Below are positions 1 to 35,608 of a stretch of DNA of 64,000 nt, in pieces (within the stretch, counting starts at the first letter, position 1; each line of letters opens with the position of its first letter). The notes beneath the pieces are model-generated. The model had not been told where the DNA came from. It worked only from the letters and a program-made list of their open reading frames with translations, and searched no databases. A program made the position numbers and the translations under genes. Location of the stretch: assembly GCF_003201475.1 (NCBI RefSeq), contig NZ_QJJK01000001.1:74501-138500 (forward strand), read 5' to 3'. This DNA comes from Chelatococcus asaccharovorans. Its GTDB lineage: Bacteria; Pseudomonadota; Alphaproteobacteria; Rhizobiales; Beijerinckiaceae.

Positions 1-114
1 GGCCGCCCGTATCGCGAAGAACCCGGCTGACTGGAACACCCCGGGCTCAGCCGCGACCCACAGCAGCGATACGAGGGCGAGGATGCCAACAAGGACCTGC
101 TTGATGTGTCTCAT
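1..114 (-). CDS. Ferric-reductase-like transmembrane protein, N-terminal 38 residues (partial)
   Basis: This reading frame starts at an ATG at 114, preceded by a GGGAG ribosome-binding site five bases upstream, and runs off the left edge of the window. The visible part has a basic start (MRHIKQ), a hydrophobic helix of about 17 residues and then AEPGVFQSAGFFAIRAA. That pattern resembles the first helix of ferric-reductase-like b-type haem membrane proteins. It lies just downstream of, and in the same direction as, the ApbE and PepSY-flavoprotein genes, so a role in transmembrane electron transfer fits. The family call rests on 38 residues only; the gene itself is more certain than its name. 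Confidence 0.5.
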   Translation of the reverse strand, partial: MRHIKQVLVGILALVSLLWVAAEPGVFQSAGFFAIRAA

Positions 115-274
115 GTCTCCCGTTCCCTTTCACACCCCGACGGTTCTGCATTGATCCCGAGCGGGCACCTCCACCGGGAAGAACACCCGGAAACGGCAGC
201 GGCCGCATTGAGAGGACGCAAGGGAATGGACCCGGGGGCCAGGATTGCGCCGCCAGTCCATGCGGCATGGTTGG

Positions 275-1231
275 TCACGGCCATGTCGCCACCACCTCTC
301 CGTCGCTCCCGACGAACAGCGCGGCGAGGCCGAGCCGGCGGGCGAGGGCCGGGCCGTCCTGCGCACCGCGCACCAACAGCGCCGTCGCCCAGGCATCGGC
401 GGCCATGCAGGTGTCGCTGAGCACGGTGACGGCGGCGAGGTCGTTCTCCAATGGCGCGCCGCGAGAGGGGTCCATGGTGTGGGAGAGCCTCCTGCCCGCC
501 ACCTCCACCTGATGGCGATAGCTGCCAGAGGTTGCGACGGCGGCACCGGACAACTCCAGCACCCCGAGGACTTCCCGCACGCCGGGGACTGGCGCCTCGT
601 GGGCGACGACCCAGGGGCGGCCATCCGGCTTCGTGCCCGCCGCGCGCATCTCCCCGTCGATGCCCACGAGCCAGGCGGAAAAGCCCGCCTCCGTCATCTC
701 CCGCGCCAGGTCGTCCACGCCGAAGCCCTTGGCGATGCCGGACAGATCGAGCCGCAGCGGCGCCAGGCGGCGCGCGCGGCAGCCTGCCGGATCGAGCTGC
801 AGGGTCTTTGGCGGCTCGAAGGAGGGACGCCCCGCAAGCGCAGCGATGCGTCCGCCGTCGGGCACGCGCGTGCCGCACCCGAAGCCCCAGGCCTGGACCA
901 GATCGCCCACGCCGATGTCGAACGCGCCCCCCGACAGGCGGCCGATCTCGAGGGCCGCAGCGAGCACGCCCATCAGTTCGCAGGGAATGGCCACCCAGGT
1001 GCCGAGGGGGGCGGCGTTGAGCTGCTCCAGGTCGGAATCCGGCCGCCAGGTGGACATCTGGCGCTCGACACGGTCGAGGGTGCCCTGAAGGCGGCGGGTG
1101 AGCGCCCCCTCGTCCACGCCGCCTACGGCGAAAAACACCGCCGACCAGCGCGCGCCCATGGCGGGGCCGCTGAGGGCGTGGCGGCGGGGCTCCAGCGCGC
1201 CTTGAGCTGAATCAGTAGACATCTTCGACAT
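275..1231 (-). CDS. apbE: FAD:protein FMN transferase (ApbE family)
   Basis: ApbE enzymes move FMN from FAD onto a Thr or Ser of a target protein. The protein (318 aa) shows the family signposts in order: a PAMGARW start of domain, STWRPDSDL, GGAFDIGVGDLVQAWGFG, an LSGIAKGFGVD nucleotide-binding stretch, HTMDPSRGAP, and CMAADAWATALLV near the end with the metal-binding Asp. The start at 1231 lies inside the last codons of the upstream flavoprotein gene, so the two are coupled; an ATG at 1222 is equally possible. No signal peptide or lipobox is visible, so the enzyme seems to be cytoplasmic, unlike many periplasmic ApbEs. The likely substrate is the secreted DUF2271 protein encoded two genes upstream. 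Confidence 0.9.
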   Translation of the reverse strand: MSKMSTDSAQGALEPRRHALSGPAMGARWSAVFFAVGGVDEGALTRRLQGTLDRVERQMSTWRPDSDLEQLNAAPLGTWVAIPCELMGVLAAALEIGRLSGGAFDIGVGDLVQAWGFGCGTRVPDGGRIAALAGRPSFEPPKTLQLDPAGCRARRLAPLRLDLSGIAKGFGVDDLAREMTEAGFSAWLVGIDGEMRAAGTKPDGRPWVVAHEAPVPGVREVLGVLELSGAAVATSGSYRHQVEVAGRRLSHTMDPSRGAPLENDLAAVTVLSDTCMAADAWATALLVRGAQDGPALARRLGLAALFVGSDGEVVATWP

Positions 1232-3398
1232 AGCGTCCAGACGACTTGAGGGTGGGAAGGTCGAGGCCGAGTGGCCGCACGATCGGATCGAGTGCCCAGG
1301 TCACGGCCTGGGCCATGTCACGGCCGCCGCACACCAGGATTTGCGCGCCCTGCCGGATCAGCTCGCGCAGGCGAGGCGCGTCGGCGGCGATGCGATCCTG
1401 CACATAGGCGCCGCCATCCGGACCGCGTGAGAAGGCGGTCTGGAGCGAGGTCAGGCGTTTCTCGGCGAGATGCTGGGCCAGTTCGTGCTCGTAGAGAAAA
1501 TCCGACGACGGGCTGCGGCCGCCCCAGTAGAGGTGGACCGGGCGACCGGCCGCATTGGCGCGCACCAGGCCGGCGAGTGGACCGATGCCGGCGCCGGCGC
1601 CGATCAGGATGAGCGGCGCCCGTCCCGCGGCCGGCCGGAAGGTCGGGTTGGCGCGGATGAAAGCCTCCACGCGATCGCCGGGAGCGAGAGCGTGCAGGAA
1701 GGTCGAGCAGAGCCCGCCTGCGCGCAGGCGGACGCAGATCTCCAGCATCCCGTCGCACGACGACGACGCCAGCGAATAGAAGCGCGGCATCGGATGGCCC
1801 GGCGGCAGGATGCCGACGAGGTCGCCGGGCTCGAACGACGGCAGGCGTCCGGCCTTGCCGTCCGTTCCTGGCCTCCGGAAGCGCAGGATCGCCACCGGCG
1901 CGCCGACGGCCACGCCATAGTCCTCGCGTTCGACGAGTTCGAGCGCGACCGTCTTCGGCGGCTCGGCGACGTGCTCTAGCTTGAGGTCGTGACCAAGCAC
2001 GGTACCGAGGTCGCGGCCCCATTGGGCGAACTCCTGCGCAGAACGCCGATCGATGCGCTTCATCGGCAGGAGCTGCGGCCAGCCGTTCGCCGTGAGCGCA
2101 GCCAACATCTCCTCGGCGTAGCCGCAGAAATGCGGAAAGCAGCGGTCGCCGAAGCCGAGCACCGCCACCGGCACGCGGCGTTCCTGCCGCGCGAGCCGGG
2201 ACAGGAACGCCGTCGCCGAGGCGGGCGCCGCTCCGTCGCCATGGGTCGCGGCCAAGAGCAGCAGGCGTTCGGTGACGGCGGAAAACGGCTGAAGATCGTT
2301 CATGGCCGCGGTGTGGACATGGTGGCCGGCGCGGGTCAGCGCGTCGTGCAGCGTCGCGGCGAAGCCCCAGGTGGAATTGCCTTCGCTGCCCACCAGGAGG
2401 ACGGTGTCGGCAGCACGGGCGGGCGCGTTCATCGCGATGCGCGGCCGGGCGGCGCGGCGGCGCCACCACATTGCGATGCCGGTCGCGCCGAGCACCGGAA
2501 CCGCCGCCGCCGAAAGGCCGAGCACGAGCCCGAGCACCCAGGCGCCCTGGCCGGTGTGGAGGGTACGGATCATGCCGTTCAGGCGGTCGAGCGTCGTCGC
2601 CGGGGTGAAGGACAGCTCCGCGCCCGTCGCCGCATCGATCTGCGCCTCGCCCCGGCTTGTCCGCAGGCCGTAGGTGTCGGTCGGATCGTCGGGTGCCGGG
2701 AAGGTCAGCTCGAGCAGGCTCGCCACATCGGTCGCCCTGAGCGCCGCCAGCGTGCCGGCCGGAGCAGGCGCGCCGCCGCTCGCCGACACCATGGGCGCGG
2801 CGGCTTCGTGTTCGGGGATGAGGCCGAAGCTGCTCGCCGACATCCACGCGCCCGTGAGGGATGAGAGGACGAGGCCGGCGGCAGCGAAACGGCCGAGCTC
2901 GCCGTGCCAGCGCTGGGCCGGTGTGCCTCGGATGGACTGCAGCAGCGCGCCCGCTCCGCCGAGGCGGCGGGCGAGGAGGAGGGTGCCGGAGACGGTGAGC
3001 ACGAGCATGGCGAGCGCGCCGGCGCCGGTGGCGGCCCGCCCCGCATCTCCGGTCAGAAACGCGCGATGCAGATTCGTGATGACGCGTGTCGTTTCTGAGA
3101 CATGGTAGGGACCAAGCCCGGCCCCGGTCGCCGGATCGACCCGCTCCACGCCGCGCGTTTCGCCGTCGGTGAAGGCGACCGTGACGGCGCCGTCCGGCCG
3201 CACGCGGATCGAATCGATGCCCTGGTGACGCGCCGCCACCGCCTCGGCGAGGGCGGCGACGCTGGTGCCGACCGGAATCGCCGGTGATGCGAGACGGTCG
3301 AGCGCCGGCTGCACGGAAAGCGCCACGCCGGTGAGGGCCATGACGGTAAGGCCGAGCGCGAGCACGACGCCCGGCAGCGCATGAATGCGACGAAGCAT
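1212..3398 (-). CDS. PepSY membrane domain fused to flavodoxin and NADPH-flavin reductase
   Basis: A 728-residue fusion. The N-terminal 310 or so residues form a PepSY-associated membrane domain: a first helix at residues 8-30 (GVVLALGLTVMALTGVALSV), three more hydrophobic helices, and extracytoplasmic loops. A short basic linker (MWWRRRAARPR) leads to a flavodoxin domain (VLLVGSEGNSTWGFA) and then a CysJ-like FAD/NADPH reductase. The reductase shows RFYSLASSS, GAGAGIGPLAG, YWGGRSP and a C-terminal aromatic end (SGRYVEDVY). The layout suggests electrons pass from cytosolic NADPH through FAD and FMN to the membrane domain and then outward. Its ApbE and DUF2271 neighbours support a periplasmic flavin acceptor. 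The final acceptor is unknown. Confidence 0.88.
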   Translation of the reverse strand: MLRRIHALPGVVLALGLTVMALTGVALSVQPALDRLASPAIPVGTSVAALAEAVAARHQGIDSIRVRPDGAVTVAFTDGETRGVERVDPATGAGLGPYHVSETTRVITNLHRAFLTGDAGRAATGAGALAMLVLTVSGTLLLARRLGGAGALLQSIRGTPAQRWHGELGRFAAAGLVLSSLTGAWMSASSFGLIPEHEAAAPMVSASGGAPAPAGTLAALRATDVASLLELTFPAPDDPTDTYGLRTSRGEAQIDAATGAELSFTPATTLDRLNGMIRTLHTGQGAWVLGLVLGLSAAAVPVLGATGIAMWWRRRAARPRIAMNAPARAADTVLLVGSEGNSTWGFAATLHDALTRAGHHVHTAAMNDLQPFSAVTERLLLLAATHGDGAAPASATAFLSRLARQERRVPVAVLGFGDRCFPHFCGYAEEMLAALTANGWPQLLPMKRIDRRSAQEFAQWGRDLGTVLGHDLKLEHVAEPPKTVALELVEREDYGVAVGAPVAILRFRRPGTDGKAGRLPSFEPGDLVGILPPGHPMPRFYSLASSSCDGMLEICVRLRAGGLCSTFLHALAPGDRVEAFIRANPTFRPAAGRAPLILIGAGAGIGPLAGLVRANAAGRPVHLYWGGRSPSSDFLYEHELAQHLAEKRLTSLQTAFSRGPDGGAYVQDRIAADAPRLRELIRQGAQILVCGGRDMAQAVTWALDPIVRPLGLDLPTLKSSGRYVEDVY

Positions 3399-3416
3399 GG
3401 ATCAGGTCCGATCGCT

Positions 3417-3887
3417 TCAGAAGGTGACCGTGAAGGATTTGACGTAGCCCTTGCCCGGCGCCGGCTTGCCGGAGGCCGCGGTATCGAGGGGCACGACCAC
3501 CTCGGAGGGATTGTCCATGCCGTCCTCCACGGCGGTGTCGACATGGACCTTGTATCCGGCGTCGATCATGGCATCGGCGAGGTCGAGGCTGATCTTCAGC
3601 GTCCTGCCCGAGCCGATGCTGGCGCCGGTGATGCCGTCGATCTCGGTCGGTCGCCCGCCGGAGACGCGCTGCCAGTCGCTGAGGTGGCGATAGTACTTCG
3701 CCTTGCCGCCGGCCATCCACAAGGTGCCCTTGTAGACGCCGGCGGCATCGGTGACGTAGAGCACCACATAGGCGCCGTTGCCGCCATAGGCCTTGAGGGT
3801 GGTCTCGAAGGTGACTTGGCGGGCCTCGGCGACCACCGGGGCGATCAAGGCGGTGGTGGCGGCCACGGCGGAGAGGACGAATTTCAT
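3417..3887 (-). CDS. DUF2271 secreted protein with ApbE flavinylation motif
   Basis: A 156-aa protein with a Sec signal peptide (MKFVLSAVAATTALIAPVVAEA). The mature part matches the DUF2271 family (YVVLYVTDAAGVYKGTLWM, LSDWQRV). At residues 84-90 it carries DGITGAS, which fits the D-G-x-T-G-A-[S/T] motif where ApbE attaches FMN; Ser90 would be the acceptor. The start at 3887 is set by a GAGGA site seven bases upstream; upstream in-frame codons give a poor N-terminus. It sits 18 bases before the PepSY-flavoprotein gene. I infer it is a periplasmic flavoprotein taking electrons from that membrane reductase. Flavinylation is predicted from the motif, not shown. Confidence 0.82.
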   Translation of the reverse strand: MKFVLSAVAATTALIAPVVAEARQVTFETTLKAYGGNGAYVVLYVTDAAGVYKGTLWMAGGKAKYYRHLSDWQRVSGGRPTEIDGITGASIGSGRTLKISLDLADAMIDAGYKVHVDTAVEDGMDNPSEVVVPLDTAASGKPAPGKGYVKSFTVTF

Positions 3888-3931
3888 CGGTCTGTTCCTC
3901 AATGGAGAGAAGGTCGGGCGCCGCGAGGTGC

Positions 3932-4291
3932 TCATTGCACCTCGACCTTGGGACGGGCTTTGCCGTTGAAGAGGCCGTTGTCGGGCGCCGGCGCATTGGG
4001 ATCGGCCGGGCCGGCCTGCGGGATTGCGCCGCGGCGGCCACCCTCGTCGTCTTCGCCTTCGTCCTCATCGTCATCGTGGTGGCGGCGTCCGCGATGCTCG
4101 CCGTCACGACGCCGCTCATAGGACTCTTCGGCGAAGCGGATCGGGCGCCCCTCGATGGCGGATGACGTCACGCCATCGAGCCGTTCGTGATGGCTTGAGG
4201 TCAGGTGATCAGCCTCTGCCGCCGCCAGTGCGACGCCGATACCCGTGGTGGAAAGCAGGAGCGCCGCTCCGATCAGGGTGCGCGTCTTCAT
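3932..4291 (-). CDS. Secreted acidic/His-rich hypothetical protein
   Basis: A 119-residue protein with a clear signal peptide (KTRTLIGAALLLSTTGIGVALA) and a strongly charged middle: SHHERLD, YERRRDGEHRGRRHH, then DDDEDEGEDDEGG. No family is recognised. The run of His, Asp and Glu could bind divalent cations in the periplasm. ATG 4291 has a GGGAGATGG site next to it. It is the first gene of a leftward group leading into the DUF2271, PepSY-flavoprotein and ApbE genes. Paired TTCAG/GTCAG repeats lie just upstream, so the two-component system to its right may control it. Confidence 0.7.
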   Translation of the reverse strand: MKTRTLIGAALLLSTTGIGVALAAAEADHLTSSHHERLDGVTSSAIEGRPIRFAEESYERRRDGEHRGRRHHDDDEDEGEDDEGGRRGAIPQAGPADPNAPAPDNGLFNGKARPKVEVQ

Positions 4292-4336
4292 TGGCCATCT
4301 CCCGGTTGGTGTTGACCGGAAGCACCCTCGCTTTCG

Positions 4337-4357
4337 CACCTGACGGCCACCTGAAGC
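4337..4357 (-). promoter_or_regulatory. Candidate response-regulator box (11-bp direct repeat)
   Basis: Read on the minus strand, this site is TTCAG-N6-GTCAG followed by GTG, with the half-sites 11 bp apart, the spacing used by OmpR/PhoB-type regulators. It lies about 45 bp upstream of the start of the acidic secreted protein. Nearly the same sequence occurs at 6494-6515 upstream of the small PepSY gene. A weaker TTCAG-N6-GTCAG pair lies at 4372-4387 on the plus strand. The likely binder is the response regulator encoded at 5749-6420; this is inference. Confidence 0.45.
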
Positions 4358-4384
4358 CGATGCGGATCTCCGTTCAGCTTCCCG

Positions 4385-5752
4385 TCAGGCTTGAGGCACG
4401 GCCGCGAAGCGCACCCTGGCACGGAAGCCGTCGGCTTCGCCCGGGATCGGCGAGGCGAGGTCGAGGGTCAGGCCAGCGCCGCGGCAGATGGCGGCGACGA
4501 TGGCAAGGCCGAGGCCGGAGCCCTCCGCCCCCGTCGGGCCGCGCTCGAACGGGCGGATCAGGCGCGCCAGCCGGTCGGCCGGCACCACGGGGCCGCCATT
4601 GGAGACCTCGAACAGGCCGTCGGCCAGCCGCAGCCGCACGGGCGTGCCGGGCGTGCCGTGCTTCAACGCATTCTCGATGAGATTGCGGGCGAGGATGGCG
4701 AAGGCGTCCGGATCGAGGTCGCAGACAAGGCCGCTGTCCGGCGGGATTTCGACCATCAGGTCCTCGCCCCGGTCAGTCAGCCGGTCGATGTCCGCGATCA
4801 CGTGGCGCAGCACCGGCGCGAGGGGCGTCGGGGTTTCGGCGAGGAGGCCGCCGCCCTCGGCCTTGGCCAGCTGCAGCAGCTTCTCGGACAAGCGCGAGAG
4901 ACGCTTCAGGGCGACCGCCACTGAACGGGCCCGTTCCCGGGGCGCGCCGCCCGGCAGTTCAGCGACGAGGCGCTGGGTCTGCGCCAGTGCGGCGGCGATG
5001 GGCGTCCGGAGCTCATGGGCGCTGTTGGCGGTGAAGCCGCGCTCGGCTTCGAGCGCACCGCGCAGGCGTTCCAGCAGGGCGTTGACCGATGTCGCGACGG
5101 GTGCGATCTCCTCCGGCAGCCCCACCGCTGCGACCGGCGCGAGATTGCCGCGGCCCCGTTCCTCGATCGCCGAGCGAAAGGTGATGACGGGCCTCAAGGA
5201 CAGGCGGACGGAAAGCCACACCCCGACGAGCGCGATGGGCACCAGGGCGACAAGGGGCCAGATCAGGGCGACCACCGCGCGTCGGACCGCCGCGCGGCGA
5301 TGGCCGAGGTCCTCGGCGGTGGTCACCAGGATTGTGCCCCTGACGGCCGCCTCGGTGTAGGTGCGCAGCCGCTCCGTGCTGTGGAAGCCCGGCGGGAGGC
5401 CGCGGGGGATCTGCATCAGGTCGGCGTCGCTCGACTGGAGCAGCTCGCGGCCGTCCGCGTCGCGGACCACGTAGGTGATGTATTCCCGGTGGGGGCCGAT
5501 AGGTGCCATGTGCTGGGTCGCGCTGCCTCCGTCCCGCGAGAGCAGTTCGGCATAGGCCAGCGGCAGCACCCGCTGCGCCACCTCCTGCAGGGCACTGTCG
5601 AATACCTCGCCGATCTCGCGGCGCAGCACCAGCCCGGCCACGGTGGCGGCGGCGAGCCACAGGGCGGTGACCGCCAGCGCCAGCCACAATCCCAAGCGCA
5701 GGCGCAGGCTCCACCCGCTACCGCGGCGGCCGTCGCCCACCGCCTCGTTCAT
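4385..5752 (-). CDS. Two-component sensor histidine kinase
   Basis: A 455-aa membrane sensor kinase. There is a transmembrane helix at residues 21-44, a periplasmic domain of roughly 110 residues and a second helix at about 160-185. A HAMP-type linker is followed by the dimerisation domain with phospho-acceptor His246 (ANSAHELRTP). The ATPase domain shows NLIENALKHG and GSGLGLAIV. It overlaps its response regulator by four bases (ATGA). The group resembles QseC/PmrB-type kinases. The stimulus is unknown, but the flanking secreted acidic, PepSY and redox genes suggest a divalent or redox-active metal. Confidence 0.92.
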   Translation of the reverse strand: MNEAVGDGRRGSGWSLRLRLGLWLALAVTALWLAAATVAGLVLRREIGEVFDSALQEVAQRVLPLAYAELLSRDGGSATQHMAPIGPHREYITYVVRDADGRELLQSSDADLMQIPRGLPPGFHSTERLRTYTEAAVRGTILVTTAEDLGHRRAAVRRAVVALIWPLVALVPIALVGVWLSVRLSLRPVITFRSAIEERGRGNLAPVAAVGLPEEIAPVATSVNALLERLRGALEAERGFTANSAHELRTPIAAALAQTQRLVAELPGGAPRERARSVAVALKRLSRLSEKLLQLAKAEGGGLLAETPTPLAPVLRHVIADIDRLTDRGEDLMVEIPPDSGLVCDLDPDAFAILARNLIENALKHGTPGTPVRLRLADGLFEVSNGGPVVPADRLARLIRPFERGPTGAEGSGLGLAIVAAICRGAGLTLDLASPIPGEADGFRARVRFAAVPQA

Positions 5753-6420
5753 GCGCCCGCCTCAGGCGGGCCGAGGCGATAGCCCATGCCGCGCACCGTC
5801 TCGATCACCTCCGCCCCGAGCTTCTTGCGCAGGCGGGCGATGTAGACCTCGATGGTGTTGCTCTCCACCTCGGCGTCGAAGGAATAGAGCCGCTCCTCGA
5901 GCTGCGGCTTCGACATGAGCTGGTGGGGCCGTTGCACGAACGCCTCGAACAGCGACCATTCGCGGCCGGTCAGCGCCACAGGCCGTCCCGCTCGCCGCAC
6001 CGAGCGGGCCGCAAGATCCACCTCAATGTCGCCGAGGGACACCAGAGGATTGGGATTGCCGGCATAGCGCCGCCCCACCGCCCGGATCCGCGCGCTGAGC
6101 TCGAACAGGTCGAACGGCTTGACCAGGTAATCGTCGGCGCCGGCATCGAGCGCCGCGATGCGGTCCGAGATCTGGTCCCGCGCCGTCAGTACGATGATGG
6201 GCGTGACGTCGCCCGCCACCCTCAGACGCTTCAGGAAATCGAGCCCGCGCCCGTCCGGCAACATCAGGTCGAGCAGGACCAGATCGAAGGCTGCGGCATG
6301 GATCGCCTCGGTGGCGTCGTCGAGACGGGTCACCCAGTCGGGTGTATGCCCGTCGGCGACGATCTGGTCGCGCACGGCCATCCCAAGGACAGGGTCGTCT
6401 TCCACCAGAAGGATCCGCAT
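5749..6420 (-). CDS. OmpR-family response regulator
   Basis: A 223-aa regulator with a receiver domain (MRILLVEDDP start, phospho-acceptor Asp51 in LLDLMLPDG, KPFD loop) and a C-terminal winged helix (VALTGREWSLFEAF, SNTIEVYIARLRKKL, IETVRGMGYRL). I chose ATG 6420 because the receiver domain begins there; the in-frame extension to 6489 has no family similarity. It is the first gene of the kinase pair and is divergent from the PepSY gene at 6559. The paired repeat at 6494-6515 lies between them, so autoregulation is likely. Confidence 0.93.
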   Translation of the reverse strand: MRILLVEDDPVLGMAVRDQIVADGHTPDWVTRLDDATEAIHAAAFDLVLLDLMLPDGRGLDFLKRLRVAGDVTPIIVLTARDQISDRIAALDAGADDYLVKPFDLFELSARIRAVGRRYAGNPNPLVSLGDIEVDLAARSVRRAGRPVALTGREWSLFEAFVQRPHQLMSKPQLEERLYSFDAEVESNTIEVYIARLRKKLGAEVIETVRGMGYRLGPPEAGA

Positions 6421-6493
6421 GTGTCGCCTCGGCGTGTTCCGTGCCAATTTAGCGCGCGAGACGAGCCGATGGGGCCCGATAATTTGCATGAGC

Positions 6494-6515
6494 GTTCAGG
6501 TGGGCGTCAGTTGGG
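6494..6515 (+). promoter_or_regulatory. Candidate response-regulator box in divergent promoter
   Basis: Two direct repeats, TTCAG and GTCAG, each followed by a TGGG-type half (TTCAGGTGGG, GTCAGTTGGG), 11 bp apart. The site lies between the response regulator (start 6420, leftward) and the small PepSY gene (start 6559, rightward). The match to the box at 4337-4357 on the opposite strand is close over both half-sites. It is the best candidate operator for the adjacent OmpR-family regulator. Confidence 0.5.
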
Positions 6516-6558: not shown

Positions 6559-6846
6559 GTGAGACGCACGCGGGTTGCCGCGATTTTGGTCTTCGCCGCG
6601 TGCCTCGGCGCGGGACCGGCGGCGGCCGATAGGGCTTGCAACGTGCCGCTGGCCGACTGGCAGCCACGCGACGCGCTCCAGAAGAAGCTGGAGGGCGAGG
6701 GGTGGACCGTGCTCTCGATCCGCTCCGACGACGGCTGCTACAAGGTCAGGGCGACCAACGTGCGCGGCGACAGCCTGAAGGCGAAGTACGACCCCGCCAG
6801 CCTGGAACAGATCCGGCGGAAGCACGGCGATGAAGACGACGACTGA
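6559..6846 (+). CDS. Small secreted PepSY-domain protein
   Basis: A 95-aa protein with an N-terminal signal peptide (RVAAILVFAACLGAGPAAA) followed by one PepSY domain (WQPRDALQKKLEGEGWTVLSIRSDDGCYKVRATN) and an acidic tail. The start is a GTG at 6559 with a GGAG site eight bases upstream. Genes of this type often lie beside QseBC/PmrAB-like two-component systems. It is divergent from such a pair here, with the candidate operator between, so it is probably a target of that regulator. Confidence 0.83.
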   Translation: MRRTRVAAILVFAACLGAGPAAADRACNVPLADWQPRDALQKKLEGEGWTVLSIRSDDGCYKVRATNVRGDSLKAKYDPASLEQIRRKHGDEDDD

Positions 6847-7216: not shown

Positions 7217-7342
7217 GCCGCCGCTCCAAGCCTCCGCATGCATGAAGATGCAGTGTGCCGGCGGGGCCGACGGACTGTGCGCACAATCCTGCGACACCTC
7301 ATCGCCGAAAAGCCGCTTGATGGCCGATTCTAAACGGGCTGC

Positions 7343-7362
7343 GTCAGTCTTCCGTCAGCTTC
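7343..7362 (+). promoter_or_regulatory. Candidate GTCAG direct-repeat box upstream of VIT1-like gene
   Basis: GTCAG-N6-GTCAG, an 11-bp direct repeat, lies about 120 bp upstream of the VIT1/CCC1-like gene. The spacing and half-sites match the boxes at 4337-4357 and 6494-6515, although the bases between them differ. It could place the transporter in the same regulon. Confidence is low because the motif is short. Confidence 0.3.
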
Positions 7363-7481
7363 GTTTGCCAGATTGCAGCCGCGATTGGCCGAGTGGCACG
7401 ACCTCCGTCGAAGGTTCCAATACGTCAAGCCTCATCCATCGGATGGGCTTTCTCGATAACCGTCAAAAAGGACCCTTATCA

Positions 7482-8177
7482 ATGCCGACCACTCCGCATA
7501 TCGAAAAACATTTTAGCGGCTCGGAGATCGTCCGCGACGTCGTCATCGGCATGTCGGACGGCCTGACGGTTCCTTTTGCCCTGGCCGCTGGTTTGTCTGC
7601 CGCCGTCAGTGACACCGGAGTGATCGTGACTGCGGGCCTTGCCGAGATCGCCGCCGGCGCCATCGCGATGGGGCTTGGCGGTTATCTCGCCGCGCATACG
7701 GACATTGAGCATTTCAAGTCGGAGGAAGCGCGTGAAACTTGGGAAATCGAGCATAAGCGCGATTTCGAGGTAAACGAGGTGAGGCAGATATTTGAAACCT
7801 ACGGCCTTGAGGGCGCCGCTCTGACGAACGTGGTTGACGCGATCAGCGCCAATCCCCGGCGCTGGACGGATTTCATGATGCGCTTCGAGCTCGGCCTTGA
7901 ACAGCCGGATCCGAAACGCGCTCCGCTGAGCGCTGCGACCATCGCGATCGCTTATCTCGTTGGCGGGTTCATCCCGCTTGCGCCTTATATCGCCGTATCG
8001 AACATCCCTGATGCCTTGAAGATGTCCGTGCTCACTACGGGGATCGCGCTGGCGATTTTCGGTGCAATCAAAGGCCGCTTCACGGGGGTAAACCCCTTCA
8101 GGTCCGCCGTGCAGACTTTGTTGGTTGGCGGTCTCGCGGCAGGTGCAGCCTATTGGCTGGCGCATCTTCTCGGCTGA
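7482..8177 (+). CDS. VIT1/CCC1-family transporter
   Basis: A 231-aa membrane protein of the VIT1/CCC1 family, which exports or stores Fe2+ and Mn2+. The first helix carries the family pattern (VVIGMSDGLTVPFALAAGLS), followed by VTAGLAEIAAGAIAMGLGGYLA. A cytosolic segment rich in Glu (KSEEARETWEIEHKRDFEVNEV) resembles the metal-binding domain between helices 2 and 3, and three C-terminal helices complete the fold. The start at 7482 has an AAGGA site nine bases upstream. It stands alone between the NrtS-like and SRPBCC genes. Iron or manganese detoxification fits the island. Confidence 0.88.
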   Translation: MPTTPHIEKHFSGSEIVRDVVIGMSDGLTVPFALAAGLSAAVSDTGVIVTAGLAEIAAGAIAMGLGGYLAAHTDIEHFKSEEARETWEIEHKRDFEVNEVRQIFETYGLEGAALTNVVDAISANPRRWTDFMMRFELGLEQPDPKRAPLSAATIAIAYLVGGFIPLAPYIAVSNIPDALKMSVLTTGIALAIFGAIKGRFTGVNPFRSAVQTLLVGGLAAGAAYWLAHLLG

Positions 8178-33313: not shown

Positions 33314-35608
33314 ATGGGACGTTTGCTCGACGAGCGCTTTTTGCGCAGGGCCCTCGCGGCGGCGGCCCTGGTTGGGCTTCTCGGTGGCCTTGCCGCGTGG
33401 GCGCTCGGCCATGGGGCCGTCGCCGGCCTGATCTGGACGGCCGGCACCATTCCCGTCGTCGCCTGGCTCACCGTCTCCATCGTGCGGGACCTTGTCGCCG
33501 GACGCATGGGCGTCGATGCGGTGGCGCTCCTCTCCATGAGCGGCGCCATAGCGCTCGGCGAGAGCCTCGCAGGTTCGGTCATCGCGGTGATGTATGCCGG
33601 CGGAAACCTCCTTGAGGACATCGCCATCGCGCGGGCAGAGCGGGATCTGCGATCGCTGGTCGATCGGGCGCCCCACATCGCCCATCGCCGCACCGGAGAG
33701 ACGATTGCGGACATTGCCATCGAGACCGTCGCGGTGGGCGACGTGCTGGTGGTGCGGGCCGGCGAGGTGGTGCCGGTGGACGGCCTCCTAATTGCCAATG
33801 CAGCCGCTTTGGACGAGGCGGCCCTGACCGGAGAGCCCATGCCGGTCGCGAAAGTGCGCGGCGCACCGGTGTTCAGCGGCACCGTCAATGCCGGCGAAAC
33901 CTTCGAGATCCGCGCCACCGCAGCAGCCGGCGACAGCACCTATGCCGGCATCGTGCGCATGGTGACGGCGGCACAGACGGCCAAGGCCCCGTTCATCCGG
34001 CTCGCCGACCGCTATGCGCTGCTGCTGCTGCCGGCAACGCTCGTCGTCGCAGGCCTGGCCTGGGCGCTGTCGGGCGACAAGATCCGCGCCCTCGCCGTGC
34101 TGGTCGCCTCGACGCCCTGTCCGCTGATCCTGGCGGCGCCGGTGGCCTTCATCGCCGGCATCTCCCGGGCGGCGCGGCTTGGCATTCTTGTCAAAGGCGG
34201 AAGCGCGCTGGAGGCGCTGGCGCGCACCCACACCGTCCTGTTCGACAAGACCGGCACGCTGACCGTGGGCGGCGCCCGTCTCGTCGCCGTGGAGACGGCG
34301 CCCGGCGAAAGTCCGGATGAGATCCTGCGGCTCGCGGCCTCGCTGGAGCAGGCCTCGCACCATGTGGTGGCGGAGGCCATCGTCCGTGCGGCTCGCGGGC
34401 GCGGCGTCGCGCTTGATCCGCCCGACGCGGTACGCGAAGCCATGGGATCAGGCCTGGAGGGCCGGGTCGACGGGCGCCTGGTGAAGGCGGGATCGTATGA
34501 GCTCGTCTGCGGCGCCTGTCATCGCGAGTCGTGGGCGCTGCGGGCCCTGCGGCGCGCCGCCTGGCGATCCGCCCTCAGCGTCTTCGTCTCCGTGGATGGG
34601 CAGCTGAAGGGCGCCATCCTGCTGGCCGACGAGCTGCGGCGGGAGACGCCGCGCGCGGTCCAGTCGCTGCGGGCCGCGGGCGTGGCGCGCATCGTCATGC
34701 TGACCGGCGACAATGCGGAGGCGGCGGAGACCATCGGCGCCGCTTTGGACCTCGATTGCGTCCTCGCCAACCGAACCCCGGGCGACAAGCTGGAAGCGGT
34801 CGCGGTGGAGCAGCGGCTCAACCCCACGCTGATGGTGGGCGACGGCATCAACGACGCGCCCGCCCTCGCCGCCGCCGACGTGGGCATCGCCATGGGTGCG
34901 CACGGCGCCAGCGCTTCGTCCGAAGCGGCCGATGTGGTCATCCTCGTGGATCAGCTGGACCGGGTGTCGGACGCCGTGACGATCGCCAAGCGCACGCGGC
35001 GCATCGCGCTCGAGAGCATCGGCGTCGGCATGGGGCTGTCTTGCCTCGCCATGATCGCGGCCGCCTTCGGCTGGCTGTCGCCGGTCGCCGGTGCGCTGAC
35101 CCAGGAGGCCATCGATGTCGCCGTCATCCTCAATGCCCTGCGCGCTTTGACGGCGGGTCACGGCTTCGGCCATCGTGCGCTGAAGCCGGGGTTCACCCTC
35201 GCCCTTCAGCAGGATCACCGGGAGCTGGAGGCAACCCTCGACCGGATGCGGGAGATCGCCGACAGTCTCGACGATACCACCGGCGCGGCCGCCGTCGCCT
35301 TGATCCAGGAGGCGAGCACGCTGGTGACGACACAGATCGCAGCCCACGAGCGGCTGGACGAGGAGAGCATCTACCCGCAGTTGCGCGAAGTCCTGCATGA
35401 CGGGGATGGTCTCGCCGCCATGAGCCGCGCCCACCGCGAGATCCTCCATCTCGCGCGGCTTCTGAGGCGCCTGGCGGACGGCCTCGGCGCGGACGATGCA
35501 GACCGCTATCTTATCCGCGACGCGCAGCGCATGGTGGAATCCATCGAGGCACTGGTGCGCATGCATAACGCGCAGGAGGAGGACATCTACGAGAACGTAG
35601 CGGCCTGA
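33314..35608 (+). CDS. P1B-5 ATPase (Nia-like) with C-terminal hemerythrin domain
   Basis: A 764-aa metal ATPase. The membrane signature is TPCP (about residues 267-270, VASTPCPLILAAP), not CPC. DKTGT lies near 310 and MVGDGINDAPAL near 515. After the last helices the final 130 residues form a hemerythrin-like four-helix domain with ligand-like QQDHRELEA, AAHERLDEESIYP, SRAHREILH and HNAQEEDIYE. TPCP plus a hemerythrin tail defines the P1B-5 group, whose Sinorhizobium member Nia exports Ni2+ and Fe2+. No N-terminal HMA domain is present. It is the last gene of the metal block. Confidence 0.92.
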   Translation: MGRLLDERFLRRALAAAALVGLLGGLAAWALGHGAVAGLIWTAGTIPVVAWLTVSIVRDLVAGRMGVDAVALLSMSGAIALGESLAGSVIAVMYAGGNLLEDIAIARAERDLRSLVDRAPHIAHRRTGETIADIAIETVAVGDVLVVRAGEVVPVDGLLIANAAALDEAALTGEPMPVAKVRGAPVFSGTVNAGETFEIRATAAAGDSTYAGIVRMVTAAQTAKAPFIRLADRYALLLLPATLVVAGLAWALSGDKIRALAVLVASTPCPLILAAPVAFIAGISRAARLGILVKGGSALEALARTHTVLFDKTGTLTVGGARLVAVETAPGESPDEILRLAASLEQASHHVVAEAIVRAARGRGVALDPPDAVREAMGSGLEGRVDGRLVKAGSYELVCGACHRESWALRALRRAAWRSALSVFVSVDGQLKGAILLADELRRETPRAVQSLRAAGVARIVMLTGDNAEAAETIGAALDLDCVLANRTPGDKLEAVAVEQRLNPTLMVGDGINDAPALAAADVGIAMGAHGASASSEAADVVILVDQLDRVSDAVTIAKRTRRIALESIGVGMGLSCLAMIAAAFGWLSPVAGALTQEAIDVAVILNALRALTAGHGFGHRALKPGFTLALQQDHRELEATLDRMREIADSLDDTTGAAAVALIQEASTLVTTQIAAHERLDEESIYPQLREVLHDGDGLAAMSRAHREILHLARLLRRLADGLGADDADRYLIRDAQRMVESIEALVRMHNAQEEDIYENVAA

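Follow-up and report, generated by a model that had tools for sequence, protein, structure and literature searches.

A putatively mobile PepSY/DUF2271 flavinylation module with its own two-component system in Chelatococcus asaccharovorans, and its possible role in iron-linked periplasmic metal reduction

Results

The left end of a 64,000-nucleotide stretch of Chelatococcus asaccharovorans DNA (C1:74501-138500 of a 7.25 Mb genome; hereafter the window) encodes an ApbE transferase, a PepSY_TM-flavodoxin-FNR fusion and an exported DUF2271 protein, together with a two-component system, an exported PepSY_2 protein and a VIT1-family transporter. We consider it somewhat likely that these genes form a mobile flavinylation module that is controlled by its own two-component system and serves iron-linked reduction of metal in the periplasm. 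The module is real and not a chance assembly, because its fusion, ApbE, response regulator, kinase and PepSY_2 genes recur across 57 loci of the same kind (class II). The basic kind of system is already known; what looks new is its control system and a tagging that apparently takes place inside the cell. Of the new statements, a regulon defined by a shared operator, to which the regulator is predicted to bind, has the best support, and the lack of an export signal on ApbE is of most interest.

A shared operator in the promoters of the module

Regulator and PepSY_2 genes are divergent at 77 loci, 61 of them non-redundant. TCAG-N7-TCAG was detected in 58 of these 61 promoters, compared with 0.5 on average and at most 4 after the promoters were shuffled in two-base blocks, and with 0 to 5 of 61 for nine other spacings (N3-N6 and N8-N12). 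The site consists of two pentamers 6 bp apart, with the consensus TTCAG-N6-GTCAG. A weight matrix built from the divergent-region sites was run on 198.5 kb of the window's contig, which was partly masked. Only four matches were obtained (at 4335, 4370, 6492 and 7340), and these belong to just three promoters, those of the regulator/PepSY_2 pair, the DUF2271 operon and VIT1; the match at 6492 is the only one within a region used to make the matrix. Over the 77 loci, the matrix gave 93 further matches, for which the nearest gene was DUF2271 (71), the regulator (8), PepSY_2 (5), VIT1 (3) or none of those modelled (6). The three matches nearest VIT1 are from the window and its near-copies L024 and L025. 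Taken together, these sites argue that the module is a target of the neighbouring two-component system.

A looser pattern gave 17 matches in the whole genome, of which 6 fall within C1:68950-81858; its reversed form gave 5. In the sister genome G001, a site was present 5' of a run of consecutive PepSY_2, VIT1 and P-type ATPase genes. G063 (L282, G063:C5:60000-66000) has sites in the interval that separates another regulator gene from a PepSY_2-VIT1 pair; the genes of both genomes were named by eye. DUF2271 was not seen in the 6 kb of L282 that was read, and the regulator circuit may occur, as there, apart from flavinylation. Nine regions were examined among the matches listed for the looser pattern in 19 further genomes, and several of the sites look like chance.

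A second two-component system was noticed to the left of the window (L002:2413-6840; C1:68412-72839), with its own PepSY_2 protein, a cytochrome b561, an exported rubrerythrin and an exported THAP4-like haem-binding protein. Sites of the TCAG-N7-TCAG type, all below the matrix threshold, are located 5' of the rubrerythrin/PepSY_2 pair and of the THAP4-like gene, and may belong to this second system. The exported rubrerythrin was set aside as a candidate electron acceptor, being near the module in only 3 loci.

Export signals of ApbE and DUF2271

The most hydrophobic 12-residue stretch of each ApbE was scored from every possible start codon to the conserved core, and a score of at least 1.9 was classed as a signal and one from 1.5 as intermediate; this is a hydrophobicity rule, not SignalP. 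The canonical N-terminal (lipoprotein) export signal of periplasmic ApbE was absent: no class II ApbE had an export signal (0 of 85 loci, at least two contigs being counted twice), the maximum score was 1.08, and in many loci the ApbE frame opens just five codons ahead of its start. The best-scoring ApbEs of 120 genomes of the phylum, from 30 loci, served as controls. Among the 26 controls without a DUF2271 hallmark nearby, 24 carried a signal, one was intermediate (L229) and one had none (L224); L229 in fact adjoins a DUF2271 gene (G121). The three controls with DUF2271 nearby were all without a signal, and one control was unparsed.

The lack of a signal was rejected as a peculiarity of class II, since 21 of 26 class I or other loci with the DUF2271 hallmark lacked one as well. 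The remainder of the 26 comprised two intermediate ApbEs, one with a signal (L151, with a lipobox) and two without a start codon. Twelve further loci without the hallmark, a set that includes the class II copy L102 with its broken fusion gene, gave four ApbEs with a signal, two intermediate, four with none and two without a start. At L183, L184, L186 and L187, the DUF2271 frame spans 492-529 codons and the ApbE match begins within it; these are probably ApbE-DUF2271 fusions, three of which score as signal-bearing and one as intermediate. In several signal-less class I ApbEs, for example L155, L160, L171 and L178, a short N-terminal R-[VI]-[LA]-[IV]-P was observed before the core.

The DUF2271 protein carries the opposite feature. 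Its N-terminal stretch scored at least 1.5 in 94/94 class II loci and at least 1.9 in 72/94, and in the window the hydrophobic N-terminus ends in A-x-A, again by the hydrophobicity rule and not SignalP. No twin arginine was present in the first 14 residues of the 79 DUF2271 proteins listed. Because ApbE has no export signal while DUF2271 is exported, flavin mononucleotide (FMN) is probably attached in the cytosol, before Sec export. An earlier reading of the window from its sequence alone (the sequence-only reading) had proposed covalent FMN in the periplasm; it left the place of attachment unaddressed, and ApbEs that lack an export signal at 85/85 loci speak against attachment there. In Escherichia coli, Sec can export carrier domains that were modified in the cytosol (PMC3418276). 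According to a 2025 review, the majority of ApbEs are apparently secreted, and cytosolic ones that act on proteins inside the cell are also listed; how flavin adenine dinucleotide (FAD) is delivered to periplasmic ApbE is described there as obscure (PMC12052999). A signal-less ApbE with an exported acceptor was not reported among the open-licence literature matches listed (titles and abstract starts).

Electron route and flavin acceptor

The C-terminal half of the fusion matched nitric oxide synthase, sulfite reductase flavoprotein and P450 reductase in phmmer searches, and its AlphaFold model (predicted local distance difference test, pLDDT, 87.6) matched the same diflavin reductase proteins in the PDB. 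S657/R658 are invariant in 40 sequences, and a pair of this type, judging by P450 reductase, presumably reads the phosphate of NADPH. H6, H111, H165 and H281 of the N-terminal half are also invariant (40 sequences). For comparison, a PepSY-like structure from Pseudomonas aeruginosa contains two haem sites, each formed with a pair of conserved His (PMC11334425). A sequence search of the PDB with the PepSY half returned nothing up to E 1, and a viral library search with the fusion gave a single match at E <=0.001, a flavodoxin.

In the DUF2271 protein, the reported DGITGAS at residues 84-90 proved correct; it contains the [ST]GA[ST] motif as TGAS (87-90), with Thr at 87 and Ser at 90, and G85, G88, A89 and S90 are invariant in 54 sequences. 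In the model (pLDDT 86.8), the motif lies between helix 70-76 and strand 96-104, and a fold search of the PDB found none at E <=0.001 (best 0.11). A DNA pattern for D-G-x-[ST]-G-A-[ST], with the third codon limited to NTN, detected two sites in the genome, the DUF2271 gene and one reading DGITGAR. The [ST]GA[ST] motif was not found in eight other proteins of the set that were scanned. The small acidic protein encoded next to DUF2271 was rejected as a second flavin acceptor, as its DGVTSSA lacks GA[ST] and it has no [ST]GA[ST].

An ApbE-dependent flavin electron-transfer system is supported as the best reading of these genes. The route suggested by the sequence-only reading, from NADPH through FAD, FMN and the membrane domain to covalent FMN, fits the domains, the four invariant His residues and the diflavin-reductase matches. 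Flavinylation of the window's DUF2271 protein at Ser90 is a prediction, as are haem binding by the fusion and the direction of the electrons.

Classes, conservation and distribution

Of 100 relatives, 10 had DUF2271. A sample of 398 genomes from the phylum gave 70 with DUF2271, 65 of them above the cut-off, and a scan of genome contigs yielded 70 loci. The locus sample consisted of 66 phylum regions, 9 regions from relatives, 70 contigs and 4 plasmid stretches, with search models built from the first alpha-proteobacterial loci. Class I has a shorter PepSY protein, a DUF2271 motif that mostly reads ...GATR in the loci parsed, and no close two-component relative. Class II, the window's kind, carries the diflavin fusion and comprised 94 loci by DUF2271 score, including the window, or 92 distinct loci after two doubly fetched contigs were dropped.

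Gene content was counted in the 57 class II loci, including the window, in which DUF2271 is flanked by 6.5 kb or more in both directions. The fusion was present in all 57 (in L102 in broken pieces), ApbE in 53, the response regulator, kinase and PepSY_2 in 52 each, VIT1 in 20, a TPC-type P-type ATPase in 9 and a ferric reductase in 5. All 92 distinct class II DUF2271 loci keep [ST]GAS, and the leading Asp is kept in 63 (N in 18, S in 9 and A in 2). The conservation expected of the motif thus holds in the form [ST]GAS, whereas the strict DGxTGA[ST] does so in only 63/92. A ferric reductase as a core part was rejected, as it is near the module in only 12 of the 92 loci; in L101 and L195, a ferric-reductase gene directly follows the operator.

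A class II copy was seen on a Salmonella plasmid (L101:11339-17541) near phosphonate/phosphite genes and an mcr-9 gene, and no annotated ApbE was found within the 28 kb read. DUF2271 genes similar to this one were also noted on Klebsiella, Citrobacter, Enterobacter and Raoultella plasmids. On a Methylocapsa plasmid (L102:11074-17604), the kinase and the fusion are split into several frames, and the DUF2271, small-protein and ApbE genes are open.

Signal of the kinase

None of the PmrA, QseB/QseC or PmrB equivalog cut-offs of NCBIfam was reached. The regulator scored 202 bits for PmrA (cut-off 330) and 177 for QseB (345), and the kinase 146 for QseC (475), 112 for PmrB (314) and 117 for a heavy-metal kinase subfamily, also below the cut-off. 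The periplasmic part of the window kinase contains an ExxE motif (RREIGE), and 61 of 81 class II kinases matched the pattern ExxE-x-[FLY]D. In BqsS of P. aeruginosa, ExxE has been tied to Fe2+ binding, with only the second Glu essential, and Arg or His often precedes ExxE in iron-sensing kinases (PMC12666569). In Vibrio cholerae, the kinase DbfS is under the control of the PepSY-domain protein DbfQ, and adjacency of PepSY and two-component genes is over-represented more than 60-fold (PMC12714742). For the signal, iron is the leading guess.

Gene layout of the locus

The features of the module are listed in Table 1. From 6420 leftward, the order is regulator, kinase, small acidic protein, DUF2271, fusion, ApbE and the ferric-reductase-like gene, with 160 bases between the last two. 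Pfam matches and coordinates bear out the names, order and strand of the four genes in the sequence-only reading and their placement in one leftward run. The ferric-reductase-like gene is real, and the window has only its first 114 bases; the whole gene is C1:73262-74614 (L002:7263-8615), starting at 114 and continuing beyond the window. The range of that reading, up to 4291, takes in the small exported protein as well, which it leaves unnamed, and the two-component system, PepSY_2 and VIT1, up to 8177, also belong to the module. At E 0.001, the genome itself gave one ApbE, one DUF2271 and one PepSY_TM match, and zero FMN_bind matches.

Table 1. Coordinates (window positions) of the module and associated features
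Feature	Position	Strand	Evidence	Remark
Ferric-reductase-like gene, first 114 bases	1..114	-	PF01794, 73 bits (whole protein)	
ApbE, FAD:protein FMN transferase	275..1231	-	PF02424, whole model, 248 bits	without export signal
PepSY_TM-flavodoxin-FNR fusion (membrane NADPH diflavin reductase)	1212..3398	-	PepSY_TM PF03929 125, NAD_binding_1 41, Flavodoxin_1 38 bits	
Exported DUF2271 protein, 156 aa	3417..3887	-	PF10029, 122 bits	ATG at 3887; predicted FMN acceptor Ser90
Small exported His/Asp/Glu-rich protein	3932..4291	-	no Pfam or NCBIfam match	
Two back-to-back operators	4335..4393	4335-4358 minus, 4370-4393 plus	weight-matrix scores 26.7, 23.3	5' of small protein-DUF2271-fusion-ApbE operon
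Sensor histidine kinase	4385..5752	-	Pfam; NCBIfam nearest QseC, below cut-off	RREIGE after first membrane helix
OmpR/PmrA-type response regulator	5749..6420	-	Pfam; NCBIfam nearest PmrA, below cut-off	
Operator	6492..6515	+	weight-matrix score 23.8	regulator/PepSY_2 intergenic
Exported PepSY_2 protein, probable kinase partner	6559..6846	+	PF13670, 86 bits on 6595-6846	GTG start set by eye
Operator	7340..7363	+	weight-matrix score 22.9	5' of VIT1
VIT1-family Fe/Mn transporter	7482..8177	+	PF01988, 230 bits on 7446-8177	start uncertain (7443 possible)
P-type ATPase, C-terminal haemerythrin domain	33314..35608	+	Pfam	membership in module here uncertain

Relatives of the haemerythrin-tailed P-type ATPase adjoin the module in other loci, with 9 of the 57 class II loci counted having one nearby. 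The small exported protein represents an Asp/His-rich family with a C-terminal NGL[FI]...PKV tail that is encoded just upstream of DUF2271; the pattern was found in 37 of 84 loci scanned, a count in which L029 is only a fragment and from which L024 and L025 are missing, although similar. In L020 and L044, a single frame seems to join PepSY_2-like sequence to an acidic tail (compare L009).

Mobility and metal-resistance surroundings

C1:67916-83057 aligns with Xanthobacter agilis L025 over 15,144 bases at 98.2% identity. The match then extends, with 94.4% and 92.7% identity, as far as C1:88432, at which point L025 ends. Xanthobacter belongs to the Xanthobacteraceae and the window genome to the Beijerinckiaceae; with such identity to a member of another family, the block looks like it moved between families recently. 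To the left of this cargo, L096:8253-L097:7052 (C1:48253-67052) encodes ParA, an S26 peptidase, a DUF3363 protein, which we take to be of the relaxase type, a type IV secretion system coupling protein, TrbL, CagX and TrbI, and is likely an integrative conjugative element or an integrated plasmid. To the right of the module, window positions 9296-35608 hold a metal-resistance stretch with a CsoR-type repressor, NicO, resistance-nodulation-division (RND) efflux, a multicopper oxidase, a YHS-type P-type ATPase, ChrA and ChrB, as well as the haemerythrin-tailed P-type ATPase. DUF2271 relatives were present on 97 of 72,556 plasmid records, and 71 of the 97 are predicted to be conjugative.

Discussion

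Proposed mechanism and alternatives

In the proposed mechanism, the sensor kinase, through its periplasmic ExxE, and its PepSY_2 partner would answer an envelope signal, most likely iron, and the PmrA/BqsR-like regulator would bind the TTCAG-N6-GTCAG direct repeats at the regulator/PepSY_2, DUF2271-operon and VIT1 promoters. Within the cytosol, ApbE would move FMN from cytosolic FAD onto Ser90 of the DUF2271 precursor, which Sec would export in its flavinylated form. The fusion would then relay electrons from NADPH through FAD, FMN and the membrane b haems to the FMN of DUF2271, which would reduce a periplasmic metal, most likely Fe(III), and VIT1 would move Fe(II)/Mn(II). An iron-responsive periplasmic metal reductase is a plausible role, with metal as the presumed final acceptor of the electrons.

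Several points weigh against this mechanism. Three of the 61 promoters are without the operator, and L104 has no TCAG-N7-TCAG at all; 20 of 81 class II kinases were unmatched or unparsed for the ExxE pattern; and just 20 of 57 class II loci have VIT1 close to the module. In addition, MbfA, the bacterial relatives of VIT1, export iron, which is ill-suited to uptake, and the related DbfRS gave no response to iron (PMC12714742).

The same electron relay could instead serve envelope defence against toxic metals or oxidants such as copper, chromate or peroxide. The surrounding island would suit such a role, as it carries RND efflux, multicopper oxidase, copper P-type ATPase, NicO and chromate genes, with the exported rubrerythrin and haem-binding protein just left of the module, and control here is by a two-component system as opposed to the Fur-linked control published for a Caulobacter relative. 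However, none of the window's copper, nickel and chromate genes has an operator according to the matrix, the operator places VIT1 under the same control, and only 3 loci have the rubrerythrin close to the module, and we regard a defensive function as unlikely. An objection of similar weight concerns the place of flavinylation: ApbE might enter the periplasm despite having no recognisable signal, and DUF2271 would then be flavinylated on that side of the membrane, in line with the textbook scheme. Most of the ApbEs characterised are periplasmic lipoproteins, and in Salmonella a periplasmic location was essential (PMC12052999). The 85 class II ApbEs, however, all lack a hydrophobic N-terminus, and in many of them five codons of open frame before the start leave no room for a signal, which makes periplasmic attachment improbable as well.

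If ApbE is cytosolic, it could also act on a cytosolic protein elsewhere in the genome, with DUF2271 not its substrate. ApbE does look cytosolic, and the cytosolic ApbE of Klebsiella pneumoniae has such a target (PMC12052999). Nevertheless, the DUF2271 proteins keep [ST]GAS in 92/92 loci, the pattern limited to NTN at the third codon finds no second D-G-x-[ST]-G-A-[ST] site in the genome, the eight further proteins scanned lack [ST]GA[ST], and ApbE adjoins DUF2271 in 53 of 57 loci, so that a substrate other than DUF2271 seems very improbable. We therefore keep to cytosolic charging of DUF2271 and an iron-linked role. The broader claim, that in PepSY/DUF2271 systems ApbE is cytosolic and the acceptor is charged before Sec export, and that class II is a mobile regulon whose iron-sensing two-component system turns on both the carrier and VIT1, falls a little short of an even chance in our judgement.

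If this claim is true, cytosolic charging removes the need for periplasmic FAD. A branch with a signal-less ApbE and a signal-bearing acceptor makes the question of periplasmic FAD supply directly testable. The operator would provide a handle on the class II regulon apart from the Fur control of the Caulobacter relative, and VIT1 would be tied to a flavinylated carrier by shared control, beyond mere nearness. The unit also appears to travel between bacterial families along with metal-resistance genes.

Comparison with known systems

Although the sequence-only reading called the gene set and its acceptor unfamiliar, both kinds are already in print (PMC8238504, Meheust et al. 2021). That work describes 3220 PepSY-like clusters, 2833 of them with DUF2271; 1077 PepSY-like genes have a NAD-binding domain, and 108 clusters contain an MsrQ-like and 167 a VIT1 gene. 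In E. coli, a DUF2271 protein was flavinylated by its ApbE, and a Thr-to-Ala change in the motif abolished this; in the text available, covalent FMN is shown for the Amantichitinum ursilacus protein only (PMC8238504). PepSY-like flavinylation is defined there by a PF03929 or PF16357 protein in a flavinylation-associated cluster, and the window has a PF03929 PepSY protein in such a cluster, beside ApbE and DUF2271. A further mark of such systems is a signal peptide on one or more of ApbE, FMN_bind, DUF2271 and DUF3570, and in the window the DUF2271 protein bears one by the hydrophobicity rule. The module resembles the published systems in its PepSY_TM protein, its DUF2271 with [ST]GA[ST] and its ApbE, and subsets of those systems likewise have NAD-binding, VIT1 or MsrQ-like components. 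It differs in the diflavin fusion, in PepSY_2 and a two-component system with a conserved operator, and in the small acidic exported protein. Two-component control is unmentioned for PepSY-like systems in the text of PMC8238504 examined, and no report of ApbE or PepSY with a two-component system was present among the open-licence literature matches listed (titles and abstract starts).

The Caulobacter cluster CC_3059-3063 shares DUF2271, ApbE, a sulfite-reductase-type flavoprotein and PepSY with the module; it is iron-responsive and listed as Fur-regulated (PMC3751524), and has a fitness role under ethylenediaminetetraacetic acid (PMC11870441). In contrast to that Fur-listed cluster, which includes DUF4198, the present module has a two-component system, and DUF4198 was not found among the module proteins scanned with Pfam. 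The cytosolic ApbE of K. pneumoniae is likewise without a signal peptide; its target is the cytosolic fumarate reductase (PMC12052999), whereas the sole candidate acceptor found here is exported. The control genes resemble BqsRS/CarRS and DbfQRS in having a PepSY-domain protein adjoining the kinase and regulator and a periplasmic ExxE. BqsR binds TTAAG(N)6TTAAG (PMC4682146), the same pentamer-N6-pentamer layout with TTAAG in place of the TTCAG/GTCAG found here. Unlike those of BqsRS and DbfQRS, the predicted targets of the present system are a flavinylation operon and VIT1.

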